From Sulfodiicoccus acidiphilus (GTDB taxonomy: Archaea > Thermoproteota > Thermoprotei_A > Sulfolobales > Sulfolobaceae), in contig NZ_AP018553.1 of assembly GCF_003967175.1 (NCBI RefSeq), forward strand, positions 248,001-312,000: 64,000 nucleotides of DNA, written 5' to 3'. The position numbers and the translations under genes are program-made. The notes under the pieces are model-generated. The model was given only the letters and a program-made list of their open reading frames with translations. It made no database searches and was not told the origin of the DNA. Positions 6,925 through 61,093 of this stretch are shown here, one piece after another (positions within the stretch are counted from its first letter, which is position 1; each line of letters starts with the position of its first letter).

Positions 6925-7000
6925 AACGATCTAACATAGCTAGCTGAAATTGAACTTACGAACGAGGGAGATGTGGGGAGCCTCGCCCCCAGGGACGAAC

Positions 7001-7011
7001 CACATTTAAAA
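7001..7011 (+). promoter_or_regulatory. AT-box promoter of RNA element A
   Basis: CACATTTAAAA stands about 25 bases before the start of the structured element at about 7025-7232. The block TTTAAA(A)TT followed by CTCAGG recurs at RNA elements B and C. Confidence 0.45.
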
Positions 7012-7024
7012 TTGATCTCAGGAA

Positions 7025-7232
7025 TTTGTTAGTGCCGCTTTCTCCTCCTCGGCTCGACCGAGAGCTCACTAAACTGGGAGAGGAGCAACCAACATCTCCT
7101 CCCTCCCTTTCGTGGGATCCGTAGTTACTCCACGAGGATTCCTCCTTTCGTGAGGGGAGTTCCTGCCTCCCCCAGAATCGACGATGGGAACTACGAGCCT
7201 TTGGAGGGGAACCCTCCAAGGCGAGGGAAGCT
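7025..7232 (+). ncRNA. RNA element A: promoter-equipped IS605-right-end-like RNA
   Basis: This stretch is clearly homologous to element B (60860-61093). Both share a 24-base identical block beginning GCTCGACCGAGAGCTCAC (here 7052-7075), a CCCTTTCGTGGGATC motif at about 7105, several short hairpins, and a 3' end of the form TTGGAGGGGAACCCTCCAAG. That end is typical of IS200/IS605 right ends from which TnpB guide RNAs are processed. No transposase gene flanks it. The whole gap 6925-7356 holds nothing else apart from this element and the EF-2 promoter; a second, shorter GGGGAGCCTCGCCCCC palindrome lies at about 6975. Confidence 0.5.
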
Positions 7233-7306
7233 AGAAAGTAGGTATGGAAATGTCACTCTCATTACAGTGAACCAACACAATCCGTCTCCACATACATTGA
7301 GATAAA

Positions 7307-41142: not shown

Positions 41143-41271
41143 CGAAGAGATTAACGAAGCTAGGGTCACACTCTCACGTTCTCCACTAACTCTAAAAGGT
41201 AAGCGAGAGTGTAGAGAAACTTTTATCTTAACGGGAGCTGGGGCGGAAGACTCCTCCCGTGGAATGGATAG

Positions 41272-41287
41272 CCTCCATTTAAATTCA
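41272..41287 (+). promoter_or_regulatory. AT-box promoter of RNA element C
   Basis: CCTCCATTTAAATTCA is identical, over 16 bases, to the block before RNA element B at 60831-60846. It precedes the structured element by about 15-25 bases. Confidence 0.5.
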
Positions 41288-41299
41288 ACCTCAAGGGAC

Positions 41300-41537
41300 T
41301 GTACCAACGATAGCCACAGACGGAGTGAACTTCGCCGAGAGGCGTCGAAGCGAGGGTCCTCGAAGTACGCCTACGCCCCATTCCACGGCCCTTCGTGGGC
41401 GCAAACGGATCTGAAGTGGGAATCAGAGTTCTGGGCTGGGACAGCCCTCGGCGCCTGTGTAGCACTCTACCCGTTGGGCGAGGTGAGGCGAAGAAGCAGA
41501 AAGCCCCGTCCACGAGGGCTGGATAAGTTCACGGGAG
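41300..41537 (+). ncRNA. RNA element C: IS605-right-end-like structured RNA
   Basis: Related to element D (735-956). It has the hairpin TTCGCCGAGAGGCGTCGAAG at 41331-41350, then TACGCCTACGCC, and the 3' end GTTGGGCGAGGTGAGGCGAA...GAAGCAGAAAGCC...GATAAGTTCAC, which is the classical right end of a Sulfolobales IS200/IS605 element. A promoter box lies directly before it and no transposase frame is present. The rest of the gap up to tRNA-Ser contains only the short right-end relic at 41700 and no gene. Confidence 0.5.
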
Positions 41538-41699
41538 TTCAAAGAGGAGAGGAATTCCCCTGGCAGGGATCGAGACATTTTGCATTGAGCTTAAGGGGAG
41601 TTTTAGTCCAAAGGGAATTTAGATCCTGACCCTTGTAGGTTGGAACACTAATGGATACCTCGTTAAACTTCTAATTACATGAGATATGCAACTCCGAAT

Positions 41700-41743
41700 C
41701 GATGAGGGGAACCCTCGCCCCTAAGGGCGGTGAGGAAGCCAGT
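41700..41743 (+). mobile_element. Right-end relic of an IS200/IS605-type element
   Basis: The sequence GGGGAACCCTCGCCCCTAAG, followed by GGCGGTGAGGAAGCCAG, is the terminal hairpin and end of an IS605-family right end, similar to the end of element B. No other part of the element remains upstream. Confidence 0.6.
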
Positions 41744-52083: not shown

Positions 52084-52333
52084 AGGTCTCTTCGGAGTCG
52101 TTGGCGACTTTCCATTTCAATTGAGGATTCAATCAGCTTAAGAAGGGTTAGGGTATCGCTCAACCTCCCTACACGATTCGCAGATGTCACATTGCTAGCC
52201 CTCACAGAAAGGAGTTTTTCTCTGGGATTTTGACTACTTTAGATATACTGTAAACTAATTGTGTAGAAGTGATAAGCGGGGAGAATCGCTAATGTGTCGG
52301 GGAGGAAGTGAGGCTAGTTCTAGAGAGCTAGGT

Positions 52334-60759: not shown

Positions 60760-60830
60760 TGAACTCTTCTGGACTATAATCATTCAACCATTTACAAAAT
60801 AGGTGTTGGGGAAAGCCTCCAGTGGAGGCG

Positions 60831-60846
60831 CCTCCATTTAAATTCA
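60831..60846 (+). promoter_or_regulatory. AT-box promoter of RNA element B
   Basis: CCTCCATTTAAATTCA, identical to the block before element C (41272-41287). It stands back to back with the cdc48 promoter. Confidence 0.5.
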
Positions 60847-60859
60847 GTCTCATGTTCAG

Positions 60860-61093
60860 TCTCAGGGATTTTTCGGTGGAGTTTCTCTCCCCAGCTCGAC
60901 CGAGAGCTCACTAAACTAGGGGAGAGACAATTAACACCTCTTCGCTCCCTTTCGTGGGATCTGGAGGTAAGTCGACGAGGATCCCCCTTTCGTGGAGGGG
61001 GCTCCAGTGCTCTCCTCGATAGACGTAACCCCGAACCGACGGTGGAACGACAAGCCCTTGGAGGTAAACCCCCCAGGGCGGGGAGGAAGTCAG
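60860..61093 (+). ncRNA. RNA element B: promoter-equipped IS605-right-end-like RNA
   Basis: Second copy of the element A family. The block starting GCTCGACCGAGAGCTCAC (60894-60917) is identical to 7052-7075, the CCCTTTCGTGGGATC motif recurs, and the end CCCCAGGGCGGGGAGGAAG then TCAG matches known IS605 right ends of Sulfolobales closely. Base pairs differ between A and B in the GAGGGG/CTCC-type stems but pairing is kept, as expected of a conserved RNA fold. No TnpB gene here. Confidence 0.5.

Follow-up and report, generated by a model that had tools for sequence, protein, structure and literature searches.

Elements A and B of Sulfodiicoccus acidiphilus are decayed members of a Sulfolobaceae-wide family of tnpB-less IS200/IS605 elements with a predicted omega-RNA core

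Two short elements, A and B, located in a 64,000-nucleotide stretch of the Sulfodiicoccus acidiphilus genome (contig NZ_AP018553.1, positions 248,001 to 312,000; the window hereafter) are old insertions, now decayed, that belong to a non-autonomous IS200/IS605 family found throughout the Sulfolobaceae. The family consists of IS605-type elements, here called solo elements, in which tnpB is replaced by a predicted 5' RNA domain on a predicted omega-RNA core; in intact copies, this conserved domain of about 117 nt stands in the place of tnpB and is joined to the core. The best explanation overall, which we consider likely, is that the solo elements guide a TnpB supplied in trans, A and B being decayed members. 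The structure remaining in A and B reflects their ancestry; both are relics. The features of the window are listed in Table 1.

Table 1. IS605-type features in the window (positions count from its first nucleotide; R1, model of the omega-RNA core; R2, model of the 5' RNA domain; E-values are rough, shortened calibrations having been used).
Feature	Position	Strand	Evidence or context
TTAC target site, outside element A	6956..6959	+	left of A; 28/28 near-identical copies likewise follow TTAC
Element A, eroded non-autonomous IS605-type, solo omega-RNA architecture	6960..7234	+	between XPF-like nuclease gene and aEF-2 gene
TATA-like box TTTAAA of A	7005..7010	+	about 24 nt 5' of the 5' RNA domain
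5' RNA domain of A, solo-specific (H1 to H3)	7029..7142	+	R2 match, 56 bits, E 9e-13
Omega-RNA core of A, decayed	7143..7200	+	H4 deleted, H5 broken; no R1 match at E<=10
Right end of A, degenerate GGAGGGGAACCCTCCAAGGCGAGGGAAGCTAG	7201..7234	+	sequence
TTAC target site	60792..60795	+	left of element B
Element B, eroded solo element	60796..61093	+	between divergent Cdc48/VAT-like ATPase and reverse-gyrase-like genes
TATA-like box of B, TTTAAATT	60837..60844	+	sequence
Solo-specific 5' RNA domain of B	60873..60985	+	R2 match, 46.6 bits, E 3e-10
Remains of the omega-RNA core of B	60995..61048	+	R1 match, 16.7 bits, E 0.08; H4 lost
Right end of B, intact GGGCGGGGAGGAAGTCAG	61055..61093	+	sequence
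Third IS605-type remnant, older and more decayed	about 41230..41742	+	LE-like hairpin, TATA box, TnpB-like C-terminal stretch
Omega core of third remnant, decayed	41645..41711	+	sequence and core model
Right end of third remnant	41728..41742	+	sequence and core model

A and B are 82% identical over an ungapped block of 83 nt, which includes the 24-base run GCTCGACCGAGAGCTCACTAAACT and CTCCCTTTCGTGGGATC. Pairing changes between the two are found at CTCCTC..GAGGAG versus TCTCTC..GAGAGA and at GGGATCC/GGATTCC versus GGGATCT/GGATCCC. Both follow a TTAC and contain a left-end hairpin, a TATA-like box, and an IS605-type right end, which is perfect in B (GGGCGGGGAGGAAGTCAG) and degenerate in A (GGCGAGGGAAGCTAG); the box of A lies where the 28 near-identical copies described below have TATTTATA. 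A sequence-only reading of the window had noticed the shared 24-base block, the paired hairpins with apparently compensating changes, the AT-box, and the IS605-like right end, and all of these are present. It missed the left end and the TTAC target. The similarity of A and B is far beyond chance, since both are recovered by R2, a model trained on the 5' portions of 17 solo copies with A and B left out; the next match in the window scores 13 bits. Folding of the single sequences, with z values of -1.8 for A and -1.0 for B, was uninformative. At the gathering score, Rfam identified tRNAs and nothing else across the window. Matches of A to the Rfam families ar14 and skipping-rope were weak and were judged to be due to chance.

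A search of the S. acidiphilus genome with A as query returned B and many weaker matches, and 22 matches were obtained in genome G003. When one mismatch is allowed, the 2.35-Mb S. acidiphilus genome contains 79 occurrences of the right-end pattern CGGGGAGGAAGYCAG versus 3 of the reversed control. These 79 loci, retrieved as targeted stretches, constituted the sample for the family survey. One near-identical element of 339-348 bp accounts for 28 of them; its copies have sharp borders, end in ...GGGCGGGGAGGAAGTCAG, and are embedded in unrelated flanks, while the remaining loci represent older, divergent subfamilies. The left end of the near-identical copies is formed by a hairpin, GGGGGCGGAAAGCCTCGCC..GGCGGGGAYGGAYAGCCCCC, followed by TATTTATACTTC, and TTAC is located immediately 5' in every copy (28/28). 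As in PATEs, the short target 5' of the element is fixed in all 28 copies and in A and B, and a transposase gene is absent; the lack of target duplication is seen in the virus pair described below.

A covariance-model search of the kind that the sequence-only reading had proposed was run on the genome and its relatives. R2 has 90 matches in the S. acidiphilus genome and is found in 15 of 39 genomes; these 15 represent 9 genera, all of one family, the Sulfolobaceae. R1 has 85 matches in the same genome, and the core it describes is present in 51 of the class's 147 genomes. When named genomes were scanned for an exact pattern, two records and no more were obtained. The suspicion that full-length elements with the same ends would mark these loci as relics is borne out for A and B, full-length tnpB elements with these ends and about 90 other copies being present, but it does not extend to the family.

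Over their last ~100 nt, the solo copies can be aligned to the 3' ends of tnpB elements from the same genome; in the latter, the core begins 2 nt past the Zn-ribbon match of TnpB, as it does in known omega RNAs. The arms of stem H4 are GAGUGGAUC/GAUCCACUC in solo elements versus GAGGGGGUC/GACCCUCUC in tnpB-linked cores, and those of stem H5 are CCCACC/GGUGGG versus CCCCUC/GAGGGG. In an alignment of 27 sequences from many genera, 95.6% of the cells were paired and 9 of the 15 pairs had changes on both sides, a result matched by 0 of 500 shuffles. The slid controls collapsed, and the core pairs stay intact across genera. The solo elements thus hold a predicted omega-RNA core that is homologous to the cores of tnpB elements, in agreement with the earlier suggestion that these RNAs descend from IS605-type right ends. 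The covariation is observed mainly between the solo and the tnpB-linked groups, and it is therefore no proof of selection after the loss of tnpB. The exchange in H5 may predate this loss, because a tnpB-linked core of genome G020 (L201) already bears the solo-type H5. In ATV, the gene annotated as IS605 OrfB overlaps with a tnpB-linked core.

The whole of HgcC (RF00062), a long-orphan archaeal RNA family of Rfam, can be aligned to the tnpB-linked core of locus L106 (L106 108-218, minus strand), including ...GGGGAGGAGGUCAG. The score is 41.6 bits (E 1e-6) for L106 and 21-25 bits for the solo cores, with none reaching the gathering score of 50; the HgcC search gave no match to A or B. Because the full-length alignment to a tnpB-linked core includes the right end, HgcC is probably a TnpB omega RNA. 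HgcC is the closest Rfam family, and sot0042 (RF02656) is another close one.

Among the matches listed, the R2 domain and tnpB are mutually exclusive upstream of the core. In S. acidiphilus, 37 of the listed R1 cores are preceded by the R2 domain, 7 by tnpB, none by both, and 5 by neither; the corresponding numbers among the matches listed for G003 are 12, 9, 0, and 0. In stem H3 of the 5' domain, GGGACU/AGUCCC is exchanged for GGGAUCC/GGAUCCC between subfamilies, and A and B have the second form. The covariation of H3 in this solo-only domain is moderate (14 copies with 12 distinct arm pairs, the arms aligned by hand; 43 of 2000 shuffles were as high) and is suggestive, not conclusive.

The statement that tnpB is lacking is correct for A and B; however, the S. 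acidiphilus genome contains 44 matches to PF07282, and the window itself harbors a third IS605 remnant. A TnpB encoded elsewhere had been anticipated, and a full-length cognate is indeed located at 1.030 Mb (locus L106). This tnpB element follows a TTAC and has the same left hairpin as the solo elements, the hairpin GAAAGCCTCGCC..GGCGGGGAYGGA and the right end GGGCGGGGAGGAAGTCAG being common to both. Its TnpB is full length, matches PF07282, falls just below the cut-off for PF01385, and has, by eye, the apparent RuvC residues VAVDIN, KLENL, and NDRDV. Wherever else in the genome a tnpB gene is linked to this core, it is a fragment, which leaves L106 as the single full-length cognate. An intact Y1 TnpA is present in one copy, on a different tnpB subfamily. 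At locus L088 (about 430.8 kb in the S. acidiphilus genome), the TnpA-bearing IS605 element directly adjoins a solo element in the opposite orientation.

Few members of the family are as eroded as A and B, whose RNA part is 60-68% identical to that of intact copies. In both, H4 has been deleted, and H5 is broken and mostly lost; the intact scaffold stems expected of a TnpB omega RNA are absent. Intact copies score 90-99 bits with R1, far from the values for A and B in Table 1. Since H4 and most of H5 are lost, A and B probably guide nothing now. The 16-nt guides past their right ends, together with TTAC, had no further site in a search of the S. acidiphilus genome. The features of a TldR-type regulator RNA, which would be a guide matching a promoter elsewhere and a neighboring tnpB-like gene with a dead RuvC, were likewise not found: the genome holds no other site with TTAC and guide, and no TnpB homologue adjoins A or B. 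The sequence-only reading had offered A and B as working stand-alone guides or as a domesticated RNA family; the lost stems, the missing (A) or low (B) R1 score, and the guides without another match speak against both.

Two other loci in the window deserve mention. The third IS605-type remnant (Table 1) is close to two tRNA genes, and an isolated right-end-like match, CGGGGAGGAAGTGAG, occurs at 52298-52312 in sequence that is otherwise without similarity to the family.

A pair of viruses provides an occupied and an empty site. The spindle-shaped virus STSV4 (OP999031.1; L231) carries a complete solo element of 356 bp at 174-529, with strong matches to both models (108 and 94 bits). When joined, the flanks of this element match STSV3 (OP999021.1; L234) in one piece with 98.1% identity, revealing an unoccupied site, ...AGCTTTAC|GTAAAGGAGGTGGTATAATATAA. 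The comparison of the two viruses demonstrates that the insertion was precise and occurred without target duplication. In the empty allele of STSV3, TTAC is followed by 23 nt identical to the guide of the STSV4 element. The guide is flanking host sequence and is unique to each copy; the empty site with its putative TAM and guide corresponds to that of a guided system as anatomy only. In the STSV4 record, the solo element is mis-annotated as four hypothetical proteins.

The left hairpin, the TTAC target, and the ...TCAG end fit single-strand DNA transposition by TnpA, and for this reason the copies were presumably moved in trans by TnpA. The TATA-like box would drive the 5' RNA domain, the omega core, and the right end, and intact copies would transcribe an omega RNA of ~250 nt whose guide is the host sequence just past the right end. 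This RNA would be loaded by a TnpB that another element supplies, and the nuclease would then cleave the donor or sister site that is empty and carries TTAC, the putative TAM, and the guide. Repair of the cut site would copy the solo element back, resulting in nuclease-dependent retention and homing without a nuclease of its own. The broader claim is that the Sulfolobaceae harbor a class of free-standing guide-RNA elements with their own promoter, 5' domain, and core, which hijack the TnpB of others, home into empty alleles, including viral ones, and outnumber the nuclease genes several-fold; we would give this an even chance of being correct.

For IS608 and ISDra2 it is established that transposition by TnpA requires only the end hairpins. 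The solo elements might therefore be ordinary MITEs or PATEs, for which ends recognised by TnpA suffice, and the core and 5' domain would be the passive ballast of recent transposition. Many copies are indeed recent and therefore nearly identical, and the AB subfamily lacks H4. However, a single model recognises the 5' domain across 9 genera, the TATA-like box is retained, and the core pairs are kept between genera, whereas ballast would diverge without keeping pairs; we regard this explanation as rather unlikely. Still less probable, in our estimate, is that the solo RNA is a decoy, which loads TnpB unproductively and dampens the guides of the tnpB elements, so that solo copies gain by parasitism. 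The excess of solo over tnpB-linked cores (42 to 7 in S. acidiphilus, among the matches listed) and the single full-length cognate TnpB would suit a decoy, but the mobile copies keep the right end and guide junction intact, as productive guiding needs, and the empty site in STSV3 is a perfect target.

A further alternative, very improbable and already largely refuted, is that the host has domesticated A (upstream of aEF-2) and B (between VAT and reverse gyrase) as small RNAs kept at fixed loci. Their 5' domains are fairly well kept, and in the sister species G001 the same XPF-aEF-2 gap contains, in the same orientation, the remnant of an omega core (41 bits; L156 2244-2311, minus strand). This remnant looks independent, however; it is only 53% identical to A and its flanks cannot be aligned, and we do not claim orthology for this reason. 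Upstream of aEF-2 in 12 other relatives, no element was found (a match of 15 bits in L178 is not credible), and the cores of A and B are broken and their guides match no other site in the genome. Guidance of a TnpB in trans by intact solo elements, with A and B as decayed copies, remains our preferred reading.

According to the relevant passages of two papers, PATEs are IS605-derived elements of high copy number without tnpA and tnpB, and a PATE-like element of Halanaerobium retained the entire 160-nt right end and 58 nt of tnpB (PMC3119063, PMC7290912). The PATEs described in these passages resemble the solo elements in their near-terminal palindromes, short target oligonucleotide, and lack of target duplication; a guide RNA is not discussed there. 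Unlike PATEs, the solo elements have a conserved 5' RNA domain and a TATA-like box in place of tnpB, covariation with tnpB-linked cores supports their omega core, and their range covers an entire archaeal family. Omega RNAs have already been described from archaea, among them the SisTnpB7 reRNA of S. islandicus (PMC11043419; PMC12558985). In the omega RNA or reRNA of TnpB, as in solo elements, the core runs into the right end and the guide is flanking host DNA; however, that core is located at the 3' end of tnpB, whereas the predicted solo RNA does not overlap tnpB and has a different 5' part. The SMN1 mobile element of S. islandicus was reportedly described by Berkner and Lipps in 2007. According to a later source, SMN1 is an active, non-autonomous element of 320 bp that is moved in trans by the ISC1733 transposase (PMC3718332). 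It is similar in length to the solo elements and likewise non-autonomous, and it is a strong candidate for a member of the family that has been observed before. In the literature covered, which was largely open-access, no PATE is described as an omega RNA that stands alone, bears a promoter, and has a 5' domain of its own. Transposase-free IS605 derivatives and archaeal omega RNAs were known; the predicted stand-alone omega-RNA form with its 5' domain appears to be new.

If the proposed mechanism is true, homing could be tested in the occupied and empty virus pair, and the solo elements would be a natural source of omega RNAs that act in trans and of a 5' scaffold that archaeal TnpBs could use as it is. 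It would also explain the high copy number of the smallest IS605 derivatives. If intact copies work in this way, RNA-guided retention would be separable from the nuclease, and the solo element would be a parasite of a parasite, a guide-RNA cassette of 345 bp.
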